A stretch of DNA of 31,233 nucleotides, taken from positions 1-31,233 of the IMG/VR virus record IMGVR_UViG_3300025138_000201. One strand, given 5' to 3'. Of this stretch, positions 2,008 to 29,590 are shown piece by piece. The translations under genes were made by a program, and so were the position numbers. Under the pieces are notes generated by a model. The model saw only the letters and a program-made list of their open reading frames with translations, was not told the origin of the DNA and did no database searches. Position 1 is the stretch's first letter; every line of letters begins with the position of its first letter. Origin of the DNA: a virus.

Positions 2008-3402
2008 ATGGACTTTACAATCAAAGCAGTCATCAAGAATAAATATCTCTATCTCAGATACACTTACAACCGAAAGCCCACCTTCATTAAAATCTCTACA
2101 CTAGAAGAAGAAGACATAAAAACATTTGATTCTAAAAAAGGAACTTTCAAAAATAACCTGCTTCATAACTCATTAATCAGACAGCAAATAGATTATCTAG
2201 AAGTCTTTGCAACCAAGGCTTCTGATAAATCTTCTGATTACATAAAAGAAAACTTTCACACCTACATTGACAAGAAAGCAACCATAACTAAGCAAGTTCA
2301 AACAGCTACTAAGGTCATGCATTTTGTCGGTAAACTTGACTTTGATAGTCTACTAAAAGAGAAAAAAGAATTAGAAGAAAGATTAATAGAGATTCAAAAA
2401 GAGATATTCAAATTCAATCAGTCTGGACATCAAACAGAATCAGAACTTCAATTTAAAATGTTATTAGATGATTATCCGAATGCATCAAAATTCACAAAGA
2501 AAGCCAACGCAAACAGGACTATTAGTCAGATAAAAACATGGGCAAAGACTCTAAAAGAATTTTCAAATGATACTGGTACACAGTTAAGCTTTGAAAATAT
2601 GAATGATGAATTTGAAAGTGCATATGGAAATTATTTGATGTATGACAGTCATCATAAATTCTTTAATTCTACTTATGGTAGCCATCTAAGAAAGCTTAAA
2701 ACATTCTTAACATATAGTAGTAAAAATAATAATGTCGAAATCAAAAAGAATTATCTGAATTGGTCTACAAAAAATCCTGCTAAACAGATTGTAATTCTTA
2801 CTAACATAGAATTAGAAATGATATGGAACTACAAAAACAACCTAACAGACTCACAACAAAAGATAGTTGATATAACATGGTTTCAATCTTGGACTGGTCT
2901 AAGGATAAGCGATGTTTTAAATTCTGCATGGGAACTCAATCAAGCAAAGCAAAAGAATATATTAGAAGGTACTTGTTTGAAAAATAAAGGTAGCTATGTT
3001 ATTGACTTGAATTACGATACAACTGGTAGAACTATTGACATACTAAAAGAGTATAATTACAAAATGGACTTCTTTACCGACAAGCATTACAACGAGACAA
3101 TAAAGAAGGTCTTGAAAATAGTCTTTGATGCCAATAATCACATCAAAGAAGATATCATTGTTAGCAGGTATAAAGTAGATAAAGAGTTTAAGATAACTAA
3201 ACCATGGATTTCTTTATTCTCTTCACATTGTAACAGGAAATACTTTATCAATTATCTAATTAAGATTGGTGTAACAGAAAAACATATTCTTTCTATTATA
3301 GGTAGTGCATCCGCCAGTGAGTTGCAGAGTAGTTATATTTCTAGCAATAAAGAAGACATCATTGAAGCAGGTAGAAAGCGAATTGAAGCATCTAAAAAAT
3401 AA
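2008..3402 (+). CDS. int: Tyrosine recombinase, phage integrase
   Basis: Catalyses site-specific integration and excision between the tRNA-Arg attB and the phage attP. The 464-aa protein has a beta-rich N-terminal arm-binding region with the basic YTYNRKPTFIK stretch, a coiled segment near 115-135, a core-binding region (about 145-245) and the C-terminal catalytic domain. The active-site set is R299 (WTGLRISDV), H407 and R410 (HCNR) and the nucleophile Y443 (SSYIS). The usual LGH box is a divergent IIGSAS, common in Bacteroidetes integrases. The gene is transcribed away from attL, directly downstream of two arm sites. Length is normal and there is no frame disruption. ATG at 2008 is the first start after the arm sites. 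Confidence 0.95.
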   Translation: MDFTIKAVIKNKYLYLRYTYNRKPTFIKISTLEEEDIKTFDSKKGTFKNNLLHNSLIRQQIDYLEVFATKASDKSSDYIKENFHTYIDKKATITKQVQTATKVMHFVGKLDFDSLLKEKKELEERLIEIQKEIFKFNQSGHQTESELQFKMLLDDYPNASKFTKKANANRTISQIKTWAKTLKEFSNDTGTQLSFENMNDEFESAYGNYLMYDSHHKFFNSTYGSHLRKLKTFLTYSSKNNNVEIKKNYLNWSTKNPAKQIVILTNIELEMIWNYKNNLTDSQQKIVDITWFQSWTGLRISDVLNSAWELNQAKQKNILEGTCLKNKGSYVIDLNYDTTGRTIDILKEYNYKMDFFTDKHYNETIKKVLKIVFDANNHIKEDIIVSRYKVDKEFKITKPWISLFSSHCNRKYFINYLIKIGVTEKHILSIIGSASASELQSSYISSNKEDIIEAGRKRIEASKK

Positions 3403-4082: not shown

Positions 4083-4102
4083 GAAGTCACAATTATCAAA
4101 AC

Positions 4103-4135
4103 AAAAAGGATAGATTAATAGTCTATCCTTTTTTT
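4103..4135 (+). terminator. Terminator of the integrase-side unit
   Basis: The stem GGATAGA/TCTATCC is extended by A5/T5 and ends in a run of seven T on the plus strand. It lies 20 bp after the stop of the 104-aa gene. Confidence 0.88.
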
Positions 4136-4181
4136 ATGTCTTTTCTACTCTTCTATAAGTTATCAATTACAATACTTACCA

Positions 4182-4230
4182 ACACTATATAATTCAATCC
4201 TAAGAACACTTCTAGCTATTCATTACAACT
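4182..4230. repeat. Imperfect direct repeat, copy 1
   Basis: About 49 bp closely matching 5061-5112. Shared blocks include AATTCAATCCTAAG and TTCTAGCTATTCA. Each copy lies 35-90 bp beyond the 3' end of a small minus-strand gene. Confidence 0.75.
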
Positions 4231-4264
4231 TAACAGTATCAATTTATAGACACTGTTAAAACGC

Positions 4265-4498
4265 TTATAATGAATCAAATAGATTTACTAGACTTCTTAG
4301 AGTTCCTAGACTTCTATTCCTCAAATTAGCCTTGTTATATTCCCACTCTTTAAATAATAAATCTTCATCTATTACTTCCACCGATGAAGCATTGATTTCA
4401 ACAAATTTACAATTAATCTCATTACGCAATCTTTGTAATTCGGTTGACATGGTTAATTCTTCTTTCATCTCGTTTAATTCTTTTTTTTTATATATCAA
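4265..4498 (-). CDS. Small hypothetical protein
   Basis: Up to 77 aa, charged and predicted helical, with no recognised domain. The ATG at 4498 gives a lysine-rich N-terminus; an internal ATG at residue 17 (MSTELQRL) is an equally good start. It is the only decent ORF between the plus-strand terminator and the gene-free stretch, and a copy of the 50-bp repeat lies downstream. A plus-strand ORF overlapping it (4332-4616) looks like a shadow. Moderate to low certainty that it is expressed. Confidence 0.45.
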   Translation of the reverse strand: MIYKKKELNEMKEELTMSTELQRLRNEINCKFVEINASSVEVIDEDLLFKEWEYNKANLRNRSLGTLRSLVNLFDSL

Positions 4499-5198
4499 GG
4501 CTGATAATCAAAAAAGTAGCTTACTGATATATTTCTTCAGAATGAATAACGAATTGATAACAAGCTTATCCAGTTGCTACCTAACAAGACTTCTCTTCTG
4601 CGATGTTAAATCATAACAGATATCAATGATGACAGCTTAGAACTCATTAAATCAGCTAGTGAATTGGTAATTATTGTATTTTTTCCATATGTTTGAAATG
4701 AAGATGAAAAAAGGTAACATTATAAGAAACTCAAAAGCATCACCCAGATTGCATTATTAAGAGATTTTCACTTTCTATTTAACATATACATTCTTATATA
4801 ACACATTCGCATTGTATTATTTCAAGATATTGAACTTTAAGAAGAGGTATTTTGGGTTATTCGGTGATGCTTAATTTGATTCTTGAAATAGCCCAATAAA
4901 AAAGAATTCAAATAGTCCTAGGTTGTCAGAAATAGATGTGGAGGATTCAAACTTATGAAGGCTGAATCCGTGGAAATCTTTTGCTAAATCAATTCCTTCG
5001 GCACTACGTTCTTTCTATAATTTATCAGTAGTTTAAAACGCACCTCAATTCTTCTACTGGACACTATTTAATTCAATCCTAAGCGACTTTCTAGCTATTC
5101 ACTACTACAACTATCAACCAACTTTAACAGCGCAGAAAAACAACATTCTAATAGAAAATCACTATAATTTTTAGAATAACATCAGTTGGGTCTATCAC
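4499..5198. other. Gene-free stretch with inverted repeats
   Basis: About 700 bp with no credible ORF on either strand. It holds a 10-bp perfect inverted repeat (AAGCATCACC near 4737, GGTGATGCTT near 4863). It also has a partly matching pair TTTCAAGA/TCTTGAAA near 4818 and 4883, and a small hairpin GGATTCA/TGAATCC at 4943-4969. It might encode a structured RNA or be decayed coding DNA. Confidence 0.5.
5061..5112. repeat. Imperfect direct repeat, copy 2
   Basis: Matches 4182-4230 with a 3-bp insertion and a few substitutions. It lies in the same position relative to the next small minus-strand gene, so the pair may mark a duplicated 3' module. Confidence 0.75.
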
Positions 5199-5474
5199 TC
5201 AAAAATCACTGGATAGTAACAGCTTCTGGGTGAACTTGATAAATAGGTATTTGTAGAATACATTATCTACTGCCATTGGAAAGTTATCATTGAGATGCTT
5301 GTAATAATTAATAGCTGTATTTGGAAGGTAGTCCAGGACATAGACAAGATTATCAAAGCTTTCCATGATTCTATACCTATCAGCATATACTTCTAATTTC
5401 AATTCATTGGAAATGGGACGATTAAATAATCCTTCTATTTCATCCAGTAATTCACTATCATCTAACATCATCAT
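5199..5474 (-). CDS. Small acidic hypothetical protein
   Basis: 91 aa with three consecutive ATG codons at the start, an acidic N-terminus (LDDSELLDEIEGLF) and a helical remainder. No domain recognised. It begins beside the putative replication origin and points away from the polymerase-like gene. It is the best candidate for a leftward early regulator by position, but no DNA-binding motif is visible. Confidence 0.55.
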   Translation of the reverse strand: MMMLDDSELLDEIEGLFNRPISNELKLEVYADRYRIMESFDNLVYVLDYLPNTAINYYKHLNDNFPMAVDNVFYKYLFIKFTQKLLLSSDF

Positions 5475-5563
5475 TTATCACTTTCTATTATAAAGTCTTG
5501 AATATTGTTTGTGCTAAAAGGAGTTGATTAATTAATTCTTTTTGATTGGATAAATCTTCATTA

Positions 5564-5891
5564 AAAATTTGGGGGGGAAATCATTTCAATTACTAAAACA
5601 GGACAAAAAAATGGGACACATTATTGATAGTATATTATATAATTATAATTAATATATTTTACCAAATTTAAATAGTTAAGTAGTTAAAAGAGTTTATAAT
5701 AATTTCAATGGTTAAAGACTATTCCCCCCGAATTTTATATTAATAACAATACTTCTACCAACCCAAAAGAGTAATTAATCTAATCCTTTTACGACAATCT
5801 ATAATTTCAATCATTCTACTTTCTACCAACATTTCTACCTAAGTTTTTTTAAACAAAAAAAACACCTATTCCTTTAAACTTATTCTCCTAC
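5564..5891. other. Putative phage replication origin
   Basis: In very AT-rich DNA there is an inverted repeat with long G/C runs: G7 flanked by AAAATTT and AAAT (5564-5581), and ATTCCCCCCGAATTTT (5721-5736). Between them lie about 140 bp of nearly pure A/T (5620-5665 is extreme) suitable for unwinding, and AGTTAA-type repeats. Beyond the right arm are TTCTACC-like repeats at 5753, 5814, 5821 and 5833. The polymerase-like gene follows at 5967. No canonical DnaA box cluster is evident. The whole intergenic gap is 5475-5966 and holds no gene. Confidence 0.45.
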
Positions 5892-5966
5892 CCTCCTATA
5901 ATAATTAATCAAATAGAGTTTTTTGATTTTGAAGAATGATATATAAAAAGAAAGAATAACTAAATA

Positions 5967-7451
5967 ATGTTGTATGAGTCAGTAAATATTAAACATGGTA
6001 CAAAGGATAATTTAACAGGTCTCTTTTATAATTCAATTACTAATAAATGGGTTGTCAGACTCAGAACATCTTCAAAGGGAATATCAAAAAATAAGACATA
6101 CAATGAAAAATTATCTATCATCAAAAAAGAGTCAAAGGATTACGAAAGCTTTGGATGGCTACCTATTAATATTTCTATTGATGATATATCCATTAGTGCC
6201 CATCATAACTTTAATAGCAGAGTATTTTTTGATATTGATAGGGCTATTTCTCTATTCACATTATTAATAATTAAAAGAACACATTCCATTCAAAAGAACA
6301 CATTCGGATTAAAAAATGGATATATTAATATCCATTCAAAAGATTTAAGAAAATATGTAGGTAATAATTATAAAGAATATCTTCTATTTTTTGAAAAGAG
6401 TGAATATATAGTAAATTATAAAAGTGGTCGCAAAGGTTATTTATCAAATGATTATTCAAAACAATATAAGCTACATCCTAGCCTATTAAAGTCTACATCT
6501 ATAACAGAACATAGAAAGTATTACAAAGTATCTTACACTTCACCTAGAACACTAGTAAAGCTATATGAAGCAAAGCAAAAGAAGAAGTTGGAAATTCTCA
6601 AATCAGAAACGAGAATTGAATTAAAGCAAAATGTTTATAAGCTTGTTGAGTCCATAGATATTGAAGCCTTTACTAGTTACTGTTTATCCAATGCAGCTAC
6701 TTTTAAAAATGATGATATTCTTAATGATACATTAGTGAGAATATCAGAAATTAAGAGTGGTAATATAACATTCAATTCAAAGGATGAATATGGTAATCGT
6801 TTTCATTCTCCATTTACAAACACCACTAAAATATTAAGAAACTTTATTAAAATAAATAATTCTACTATCAGTGAAATTGATATCAAAAATTCTCAATTCT
6901 ATTTTCTTTCTTGTTTGACTTTGTTTTCAAAAGCTTCTATTGAGTTATTAAAAGAGACTGGAATTCCAGTCATAAGACTAAAAGAAACGTGTCATCTATT
7001 AGATTACTATTATAACAATTATTCAGATTTTAAAGAATTTATAGATTTATGCTTGTCGGGTAATATTTACAATTACTTAATAGAGAATCTACCATTTAAC
7101 AATCTCACTAAATCAAAGGTGAAAGACTTATGTTTCAAGGCTTTATTTTCTTCTTCAAAACAATGCGCATCATCAAAGAAGAAACTTAAAGTTGTATTTC
7201 CTAGTCTTGTTAGAGTTTGTGAAATAATCAATAGTACGGAAACTCCAATACCTCTATTATTACAACGCTTAGAGTCATCTATATTAATTGATAGGATTGC
7301 TTTAAAAGGCTGTGATAATTCAATTCATCCTTTTACTACAATACATGATTCAATTATATGTAGTGTTGAAGATGTTGATTTATTTGGGTATCTATTTGAA
7401 ACTACATTTGAAGATGTAGGATTACCTTTACCTATACTTACTAAAAAATAA
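5967..7451 (+). CDS. Predicted replication protein with family A/T7-type polymerase palm
   Basis: Probable phage replicase, 494 aa. The C-terminal half has single-subunit polymerase signatures in the right order. These are YGNRFHSPFTNTTKILRNFI (275-294), like the Pol I segment before the palm; D305 in EIDIKNSQFYF (motif A); an O-helix K382-xxx-K386-xxx-F390-xxx-F394, the same spacing as R754/K758/F762/Y766 of E. coli Pol I; and H460-D461-S462 in TTIHDSII (motif C). HDS resembles T7-like RNA polymerases, whereas HDE is usual in DNA polymerases. The N-terminal 220 residues may contain a winged helix (about 118-180) and replace the exonuclease domain. It directly follows the putative origin and is 10 bp upstream of the next gene. 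DNA polymerase, RNA polymerase or primase are all possible. Confidence 0.6.
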   Translation: MLYESVNIKHGTKDNLTGLFYNSITNKWVVRLRTSSKGISKNKTYNEKLSIIKKESKDYESFGWLPINISIDDISISAHHNFNSRVFFDIDRAISLFTLLIIKRTHSIQKNTFGLKNGYINIHSKDLRKYVGNNYKEYLLFFEKSEYIVNYKSGRKGYLSNDYSKQYKLHPSLLKSTSITEHRKYYKVSYTSPRTLVKLYEAKQKKKLEILKSETRIELKQNVYKLVESIDIEAFTSYCLSNAATFKNDDILNDTLVRISEIKSGNITFNSKDEYGNRFHSPFTNTTKILRNFIKINNSTISEIDIKNSQFYFLSCLTLFSKASIELLKETGIPVIRLKETCHLLDYYYNNYSDFKEFIDLCLSGNIYNYLIENLPFNNLTKSKVKDLCFKALFSSSKQCASSKKKLKVVFPSLVRVCEIINSTETPIPLLLQRLESSILIDRIALKGCDNSIHPFTTIHDSIICSVEDVDLFGYLFETTFEDVGLPLPILTKK

Positions 7452-22095: not shown

Positions 22096-22125
22096 ATTTA
22101 TAAAGACTAAGTATGTGATTTGTTT
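22096..22125 (-). promoter_or_regulatory. Late-promoter module H (before gpG-like gene)
   Basis: AAACAAA-N14-TTTATAAAT, 21-base phase. The AAAC end overlaps the HNH gene stop codon. Confidence 0.55.
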
Positions 22126-22624
22126 AATTGAAATTAAATGGTTCTAAACCAATCTCAATTAACTTCTTATCATATGTATGGGCTGCTTCTACTTCATCTT
22201 TATAGCATCCCAAATGTAATTGGCTACCTTTAATTGTTATTTGTACTTGCCACTTTCCGTTCCGTACATTCCAACAAACACCCTTGTATATACTGGAAGA
22301 TTTTTTATCTGAATTATTGTATATTCTTTTTATCTCTTTAACTATCTCTATATTCTCAACACTATTGTTTGTCTTAACCAAATCTCTATGTTTTACTAAT
22401 CTATTATCACCGTCTATTTTGTGACTTAAAAAAGTATTCGCTACCAGTTGATGAATATAAAAGGACTTCTTTCTTCCATTTTTATTCAATGTGAAAACAT
22501 AATAATCAAAGAGTGTTACATGTATTTTACAAGCTTCAATAACACCTTTCTTGAATACTCTAAGATTACCTAAATTTGATATTTCATAATTTTCAAACTC
22601 TTTAATTTCTTTCCATACTTCCAT
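22124..22624 (-). CDS. NUMOD4-HNH-AP2 homing endonuclease
   Basis: Free-standing mobile endonuclease, 166 aa. Residues 4-23 (WKEIKEFENYEISNLGNLRV) are NUMOD4. The HNH core has H58 (YIHQLVANTFL), H79 (VKHRD) and N86/N87/N91 (TNNSVENIEIV). Residues about 110-160 are an AP2 DNA-binding domain (IYKGVCWNVRNGKWQVQITIKGSQLHLG, EAAHTYD). It separates the Mu F-like and G-like genes, which are normally neighbours, and fits exactly into the gap. Such enzymes cut intron-free or gene-free alleles and copy themselves across. All key residues are present. Confidence 0.9.
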   Translation of the reverse strand: MEVWKEIKEFENYEISNLGNLRVFKKGVIEACKIHVTLFDYYVFTLNKNGRKKSFYIHQLVANTFLSHKIDGDNRLVKHRDLVKTNNSVENIEIVKEIKRIYNNSDKKSSSIYKGVCWNVRNGKWQVQITIKGSQLHLGCYKDEVEAAHTYDKKLIEIGLEPFNFN

Positions 22625-27219: not shown

Positions 27220-27777
27220 TTATTTCTTTAATATTTGTCTAGCTTTGTATAGTCTATTTCTTACCACATTAAAAGTTACATTCAATACTTTTGAAATATC
27301 TTTGTAACTCTTCTTATCATAATAATGCAGAAGTACACATTCTCTCAAATCATCATCCAACAATAATAACCTTGATTTAATAAGTTTACTATTATAAAGT
27401 TCTTCGGTAACAAAGGTTTTTTCTTCTTCCTTTTCTTCTTCGGATGTTAAAAATTCATCACTAATTAGATTTGAATTATGTAATTCATCATAGGTGCTAA
27501 TTGGTTCAATAAATTTTCTTCTTTTTGAAGCTGAAAAATTAAAATAAGTATTCTTTAAAGCTTCATAGAAGTAGCCTTTGTAGCTGCTTCTAAATGGAAA
27601 TGTACCACCATTCTTTTTAATTGTATTTGCACAAATAATAAATACATCATGAAATATGTCTTCACCAGTTTCTTTATCCAGTTTGAATTTATTTACAAAA
27701 TGATTCATTATTTTTTTATAATCATCTACAATAATTGATGTAAATAAATTTGATTTTTCTTCATTATTAATTCCCAA
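27220..27777 (-). CDS. ECF-like RNA polymerase sigma factor
   Basis: 185 aa. Region 2 is seen at about 15-90 (DDYKKIMNHFVNKFKLDKETGEDIFHDVF ... YEALKNTYFNFSASKRRK). Region 4 is at about 133-185, with a helix-turn-helix KSYKDISKVLNVTFNVVRNRLYKAR. There is no sigma-1.1 or region 3, as in ECF factors. The start is TTG; no in-frame ATG is near, and the upstream 42-aa ORF stops just before it, so coupling is likely. It stands directly upstream of packaging and late genes that carry repeated AAAC-N17-TTTATA modules, which I infer are its targets. Confidence 0.82.
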   Translation of the reverse strand: MGINNEEKSNLFTSIIVDDYKKIMNHFVNKFKLDKETGEDIFHDVFIICANTIKKNGGTFPFRSSYKGYFYEALKNTYFNFSASKRRKFIEPISTYDELHNSNLISDEFLTSEEEKEEEKTFVTEELYNSKLIKSRLLLLDDDLRECVLLHYYDKKSYKDISKVLNVTFNVVRNRLYKARQILKK

Positions 27778-29121: not shown

Positions 29122-29510
29122 AAGGAATATTAAAACGAATTGAAAGCAACAAAATACAAACGACTGGAATACTAACAATTATTGATGAAGTAGGTAAAGT
29201 AGTTTTCAAGTGTAAAACTTTGGAACTTCCTTGGCTAGATAATCATAAATCAAAAAGCTGTATAGTAAAAGATACTTATTCGGTAAAACAAAAGACCAGT
29301 AAGAAGTATGGCAAACATTTCCATATAACCGAAGTTGAGGACAGAACAAATATATCGATAACCTCAGGAGATTTAAACACAAAAATAAAAGGTGATGTCT
29401 TAATAGGTGATAGCTTCAAAGATGATGTTTTGAATGTTGAAGATTCAAAGAAAACACTGGACAAGCTGCTGGAAATCCTTCCTAACGAGTGGCAATTGCA
29501 CATAATTTGA
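29118..29510 (+). CDS. DUF5675 protein lacking the conserved His and Cys
   Basis: 130 aa. LELPWLDN (35-42), SCIV (47-50), a KYGKHFHI strand and a terminal helix (EILPNEWQLHI) identify DUF5675, often next to phage lysis genes. The family usually has an IH-x-x-N segment and a following GCI; here they read ITSGD (81-85) and GDV (92-94), so the putative catalytic His and Cys are absent. It may be a structural or regulatory relative, not an enzyme. It is coupled to rusA by ATGA and is the last phage gene before the right arm sites. Confidence 0.7.
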   Translation: MKGILKRIESNKIQTTGILTIIDEVGKVVFKCKTLELPWLDNHKSKSCIVKDTYSVKQKTSKKYGKHFHITEVEDRTNISITSGDLNTKIKGDVLIGDSFKDDVLNVEDSKKTLDKLLEILPNEWQLHII

Positions 29511-29583
29511 TGGTACAACAAAGAAAACCGTTAGTACAACAACATTCTAATTTGGTACAACATTTAGTACTTTTGTTGTACCA
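29511..29583. promoter_or_regulatory. Right arm-type integrase sites
   Basis: TGGTACAACA at 29511-29520, a one-mismatch TAGTACAACA at 29532-29541 and TGGTACAACA at 29553-29562 are followed by the inverted TGTTGTACCA at 29574-29583. All start exactly 21 bp apart. The core equals that of the two left sites. Confidence 0.8.
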
Positions 29584-29590
29584 ATTCATA

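Follow-up and report, generated by a model that had tools for sequence, protein, structure and literature searches.

A TV-Pol/divPolA2-like minimal family A polymerase shared by a small Bacteroidota prophage and huge phages: a putative primase or primase-polymerase

Primase-polymerase activity was predicted for the TV-Pols by Iyer et al. (2008; PMC2579912), who list Bacteroidetes members from Cytophaga, Polaribacter and Psychroflexus and count Microcystis phage Ma-LMM01 among the carriers, with the gene not given. De novo synthesis of primers was reported for CCPol-MP of the SCCmec elements, where CCPol alone is capable of extension only (Bebel et al., 2020; PMC7581432). The PolA-SSB primases, to which this pair belongs, are perhaps a subset of TV-Pols, as suggested in a later work (Rice, 2023; PMC10061031). 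The divPolA2 proteins of Vibrio, Rheinheimera and Aeromonas phages (e.g., AUR84708) are polymerases of about 430 aa that lack an exonuclease, and their authors leave repair or RNA synthesis possible as their function (PMC11348598).

The polymerase described here is encoded in the window, i.e., the whole 31,233-base stretch of DNA that was analysed, which is a complete IMG/VR virus record (a virus contig that may be a fragment). Its features are collected in Table 1. The assignment of the gene product to the TV-Pol/divPolA2-like minimal family A polymerases is well supported. The single protein matched no Pfam family, gave weak matches in PHROGs (best 0.0039, residues 18-58) and nothing convincing by sequence in PDB. 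A profile of 52 family members likewise gave no match among PDB sequences, and those 52 members showed no consistent family in Pfam and PHROGs.

Table 1. Features of the polymerase gene and of its surroundings in the window
Feature	Position	Strand	Remarks
TV-Pol/divPolA2-like minimal family A polymerase	5967..7451	+	494 aa; catalytic domain ~residues 206-494
R278	6798..6800	+	conserved Arg N-terminal of motif A, 98/98 rows; counterpart is the TV-Pol hairpin Arg
Motif A D305-I-K-N-S-Q310	6879..6896	+	D305 = Pol I D705; Q310 at the place of steric gate E710
Fingers (O-helix) K382-xxx-K386-xxx-F390-xxx-F394	7110..7148	+	= Pol I R754, K758, F762, Y766
Q433-R-L-E436 motif	7263..7274	+	Q433 = Pol I Q849; E436 in 98/98 rows
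Motif C H460-D461-S462	7344..7352	+	D461 = Pol I D882
Divergent tyrosine integrase	2008..3402	+	named from cluster; homologues adjoin the polymerase in 7/21 genome loci
ORFan, 152 aa	7462..7920	+	starts 11 nt past the polymerase stop; possible partner; model pLDDT 43.6, fold not resolved
AT-rich, mostly non-coding gap	4083..5966	.	1.9 kb, upstream; candidate origin or regulatory region

A tblastn search for relatives gave a Hymenobacter plasmid and six uncultured-phage records of 595-735 kb (E 0.02 to 7e-10), two of which are identical in coordinates and scores, and an alignment of seven sequences yielded 101 relatives in IMG/VR, of which 80 loci were retained, one being identical to the window. 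The huge-phage proteins and most of the IMG/VR contigs are derived from metagenomes. The single protein found nothing in genome contigs, and a two-sequence profile found 21 loci when one genome was taken for each of 84,980 species; by genome title, 18 of these loci come from Bacteroidota taxa, one is from Opitutaceae, another from Pirellula, and the last is termed just 'bacterium.' Of 395 genomes sampled from the phylum to which one Flavobacterium relative belongs, 16 contained the polymerase family and two matched the TV-Pol-type profile, while among eight genomes already known as carriers up to four family matches per genome were counted. Closest to the window protein are two proteins of Pontibacter, which are 40 and 39% identical to it across residues 8-489.

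The initial annotation proposed a cryptic family A core in this 494-aa ORF, citing KxxxKxxxFxxxF at the spacing of the O-helix, a motif A aspartate (D305) and a motif C HDS, and each of these is present where it was placed. A profile alignment of 98 family rows pairs D305 and D461 with D705 and D882 of E. coli Pol I, so that both aspartates were chosen correctly; the same alignment sets H460-D461-S462 against H881-D882-E883 and gives the remaining correspondences listed in Table 1. The suspicion that such a pattern goes beyond chance was also borne out: KxxxKxxxFxxxF occurs once in the protein, from K382, the helix pattern appeared in 353 and the complete ordered pattern in 23 of 20,000 composition-preserving shuffles, and, when the 81 open frames of the window that reach 60 aa are compared, one has the ordered pattern. 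The decisive evidence is, nevertheless, the conservation over 98 rows (an alignment into which at least four loci entered twice), in which R278, D305, K386, E436 and D461 are each invariant. Position 460 is His in 94 rows and Phe in four, S462 is kept in 93, and motif C reads HDA or FDS in some relatives. Arg (68/98) or Lys (25/98) stands at position 382, thus the RxxxK-type fingers motif of TV-Pols is present, and R278 is aligned, by sequence, with the TV-type Arg in 98/98 rows. E710 and Y766, the steric-gate pair of Pol I (their letters, like those of D705 and D882, were checked in the alignment), are both replaced: position 310 is Gln in 97 rows and His in one, and at position 394 there is Phe in 81 rows, with Tyr in 15. 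Two pairs of relatives place the family under purifying selection (dN 0.022 and dS 0.151 for L110/L111; dN 0.107 and dS 1.03 for L116/L118).

The AlphaFold2 model, built with a 52-row alignment (mean pLDDT 73.3), has ten-residue pLDDT means of 78-96 from residue 281 onward and is poor at residues 1-60. It shows the palm and fingers domain of family A, and fold searches fell on the Pol A side, in agreement with the proposed core. With model residues 206-494, VIA-align gave a best Z of 14.2 (249 residues, rmsd 3.6, 12% identity), and all 50 matches listed are family A DNA polymerases that lie within about one Z unit of each other. Foldseek against PDB placed family A polymerases on top, weakly (best E 3.8e-3), and the plain search found nothing below E 0.001. 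The best matches in BFVD are two phage proteins of 403-409 aa, one of them titled 'Putative DNA polymerase I,' and the sixth is a 'DNA polymerase' of Rheinheimera phage Barba31A (Barbavirus). N-terminally to the palm the model has helices at residues 193-211 and 214-227 (pLDDT ~50-87); the thumb of TV-Pols is a bi-helical coiled coil. No exonuclease family was detected by Pfam on the 494-aa ORF, and the fold matches barely cover residues 1-205. The first 60 residues (5967-6146) form a segment common to the Pontibacter relatives, with a weak match to phrog_31988, an AP2-like DNA-binding look by eye and low model confidence.

The relation to described polymerases was computed with hhalign, using the 98 family rows as a query against sets of divPolA2 (six rows), Pol I (six), TV-Pol-type proteins (seven) and a single T7 RNA polymerase sequence. 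The strongest match was to divPolA2 (P 8.5e-17, 203 columns), and the Pol I set followed with P 1.2e-7 over 173 columns, which again is in line with the family A core; 27 unrelated neighbour families, taken as controls, gave P of at least 0.055. The TV-Pol-type set matched at near full length (P 1e-7, 337 columns, residues 58-467), a match that became strong only once 21 genome rows on the family side and two rows found with the TV profile were added: without the two extra rows, i.e., against five TV-type rows, P was 2.5e-4, the 77-row family against five TV-type sequences gave P 0.0082, and the earliest comparisons with single sequences were weak. This reference set consists of our own stand-ins and not of accessions named by Iyer et al.; MAP_030 of Ma-LMM01 was chosen for its motifs and for the transposase next to it, and the Polaromonas and MaMV proteins were included because they resemble MAP_030. 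Gene 1 of immuto_3-5A was assumed to be divPolA1 on its annotation. With the 52-member family profile, MG592441, MW353176 and AB231700 were missed at E<=10, and the first 50 kb of Ma-LMM01 gave no useful score. In a quick tree of 111 rows, with several long branches and one doubtful join, the window family (98 rows, support 84), the TV-Pol-type proteins (seven, support 94) and divPolA2 (six, support 97) are separate, so that the window family lies outside both the divPolA2 clade and the stand-in TV-Pol set; the window protein groups with Pontibacter (support 97). Vibrio phage ICP1 has two divPolA2-type proteins, of which ORF100 (555 aa; L165 47-1714) is longer than the other (L162 101-1405).

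With divPolA2 (PMC11348598) the window family shares the small size, the catalytic palm, no exonuclease being found, an N-terminal domain unlike that of Pol I and, in huge phages, the coexistence with a regular polymerase. It differs in its separate branch and in motif C, which is FDE in AUR84708 and HDS in the window, and the window record, in contrast to the divPolA2 phages, has no regular polymerase. The features shared with TV-Pols (PMC2579912) are the conserved Arg, motif A of the form D-x-x-x-x-Q/H, the fingers Lys, Q-x-x-E and HD, as well as the occurrence in integrase-bearing mobile elements with no nuclease found; the sampled TV-Pol-type sequences, however, read HDG and form their own branch, and the surroundings of the window gene contain no D5-like helicase. 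CCPol-MP and PolA-SSB, compared by their published description, resemble the window protein in having a family A catalytic domain, which there primes in a mobile element, and CCPol-MP also in a small ORF directly downstream (PMC7581432; PMC10061031). By the same description CCPol has an OB-fold SSB partner, a D5-type helicase and in part an exonuclease, whereas none of these was found at the window. The palm and fingers fold and the equivalents of D705, D882, K758 and Q849 are common to DNA polymerase I and T7 DNA polymerase, from which the window protein differs by having no detected 3′-5′ exonuclease, Gln for the steric-gate Glu and mostly Phe, across the family, for Y766. A survey, not exhaustive, of the TV-Pol, divPolA2 and huge-phage polymerase literature gave no name for this branch. 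The Bacteroidetes TV-Pols of Iyer et al. may belong to the same branch.

The gene content of the window is that of a prophage-like unit, including terminase, Mu-like portal and head genes, tail sheath, holin and a sigma-factor-like gene (27220-27777). Pfam recognized 22 families at E<=0.001 in the 39 other ORFs, none of them a helicase (D5/DUF927-type included), primase or polymerase, and DnaB_C, DNAG_N, Zn_ribbon_DnaG, Toprim_2, DNA_pol3_alpha and DNA_pol_B had no match in the record, so that the phage is indeed without a visible helicase or primase, as the initial annotation had noted. Neighbour clustering, which covered 80 of 107 loci, revealed one integrase cluster common to the window and seven of the 21 genome loci, thus the mobile-element linkage of the TV-Pol type is present. 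Pfam integrase-type domains exceeded the cut-off in the four of those seven loci that were scanned, Phage_integrase itself in two of the four; the integrase of the window gave no significant match in its own Pfam scan, and locus L112 has an integrase from a different cluster. Copies of TTGTTGTACCAA with at most one mismatch lie at 1938-1970 (two) and 29510-29584 (four), close to where the block of phage genes starts and stops between a Fic gene and the side of a GIY-YIG/outer-membrane gene; they are probably arm or attachment sites of the integrase, and the prophage that they delimit would measure about 27.6 kb. An ORF of the NUMOD4-AP2 homing-type endonuclease (22124-22624) is placed within the head gene block. 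The origin that the initial annotation supposed beside the polymerase gained no support from the gap upstream, which has no iteron array and contains two-copy repeats only. A seven-G run and a six-C run at 5562-5579 and 5722-5739 pair as an inverted repeat that encloses 142 AT-rich bases, possibly an origin or regulatory element. A 48-base repeat, 83% alike (4182-4229 and 5061-5108), is located just beyond the stops of two small minus-strand ORFs, which suggests an old duplication.

The huge phages that carry the family are differently equipped. Each of the eight records (436-735 kb) encodes a DnaB-type helicase; a family B polymerase is present in seven, and Pol III alpha together with Pol A in the remaining one. 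A role of the family as the sole replicase of huge phages was discarded on these grounds. DNAG_N was found in none of the eight; a Toprim_2 protein of 329-339 aa is nevertheless present in three, and the idea that huge phages are devoid of any primase was rejected. Since regular polymerases coexist with the family enzyme, the latter would often be auxiliary, as a primase would be, and, with the Toprim protein of three records also in view, it need not be the primase there. LR756511, a phage of 595 kb, has two family A polymerases side by side, since the end of the family gene (L006 4446-5609) overlaps the Pol A gene that comes next (5606-6892; PF00476, 428 aa). At loci L003, L004, L005, L028 and L041 the DNA_pol_B matches fall in two distant ORFs (model positions ~18-165 and ~123-452), a pattern resembling a family B polymerase split in two.

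We consider it fairly probable that the window protein is a catalytically intact, exonuclease-free minimal polymerase, homologous to TV-Pol and divPolA2, which acts as a primase or primase-polymerase for the DNA of the element. The priming step is inferred from the literature and the genomic context, as it draws on the prediction of Iyer et al. for TV-Pols, on the de novo priming by CCPol-MP and on the link to TV-Pols made by Rice (2023). Against it count, among other points, that CCPol primes only with MP (PMC7581432), while the ORF downstream of the window gene was not resolved as an OB-fold (pLDDT 43.6), and that no D5-type helicase is encoded nearby. The enzyme could instead be an accessory, primer-dependent DNA polymerase for gap filling, repair or lesion bypass, a credible reading if on the unlikely side, with which the regular replicase of the huge phages, the resemblance of the core to DNA polymerases in VIA-align and the repair function left possible for divPolA2 by its authors (PMC11348598) are all consistent. 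It is, on the other hand, the sole replication-type enzyme found in the window prophage. A repair polymerase as the lone replication gene of a 30 kb phage would, to our knowledge, be rare, which speaks against an accessory role.

A single-subunit RNA polymerase, transcribing the element or making RNA primers, was suggested by HDS, which the initial annotation regarded as typical of such enzymes, and is in accord with the loss of the steric-gate Glu (Q310 in 97/98 rows) and with the discussion of this possibility for divPolA2 (PMC11348598). The reading of HDS was not upheld, because DNA polymerases match far better (P 1.2e-7 for Pol I vs. 0.12 for T7 RNA polymerase, the latter a weak negative since just one sequence was compared) and HDS changes to HDA or FDS among relatives; it is thus a family feature and no evidence of an RNA polymerase. 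As all 50 VIA-align matches listed are DNA polymerases, no promoter-recognition domain was identified and the sigma-factor-like gene suggests that the prophage uses the host RNA polymerase, an RNA polymerase is improbable, and it was rejected as first choice on the fold and profile results. FDS in some relatives would agree with a remnant that is catalytically dead or in decay, or with an architectural role. Such an outcome is hardly to be expected, in view of the catalytic aspartates and the fingers Lys kept in 98/98 rows, the intact frame and the low dN/dS in two pairs of relatives.

If the window protein is a primase or primase-polymerase, D305 and D461 would be the metal-binding aspartates of the palm, the fingers helix with K382, K386, F390 and F394 would meet the incoming nucleotide, and R278 would lie near the template. 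Short strands would be made on the exposed template of the element and then extended by the same enzyme or by the host replicase; helicase and clamp would come from the host in the small prophage, and the huge phages would employ their own DnaB. Polymerization of nucleotides, de novo initiation and a role in replication are predicted activities, and what the computation itself shows is the homology, the fold, the conserved catalytic residues, the purifying selection among relatives and the linkage to integrases. A bolder version, which we hold to be doubtful, is a self-sufficient priming polymerase of family A, i.e., one polypeptide that initiates de novo with both NTPs and dNTPs and without an SSB or helicase partner. 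In a 28 kb prophage it would be the only enzyme of replication, and the largest known phages would use it as a dedicated initiator. The acceptance of both kinds of nucleotides would follow from the family-wide change of the gate pair Glu710/Tyr766 to Gln and mostly Phe.

The protein probably serves in starting or copying the DNA of the element, an idea of a kind that has been proposed already. Its family matched no model of Pfam or PHROGs here and links a small Bacteroidota prophage with chromosomal elements next to integrases and with phages of 436-735 kb. It becomes directly testable whether DNA priming extends to TV-Pol-like enzymes besides CCPol, and the nearly invariant Gln at the steric-gate position offers a specific handle on sugar selectivity.
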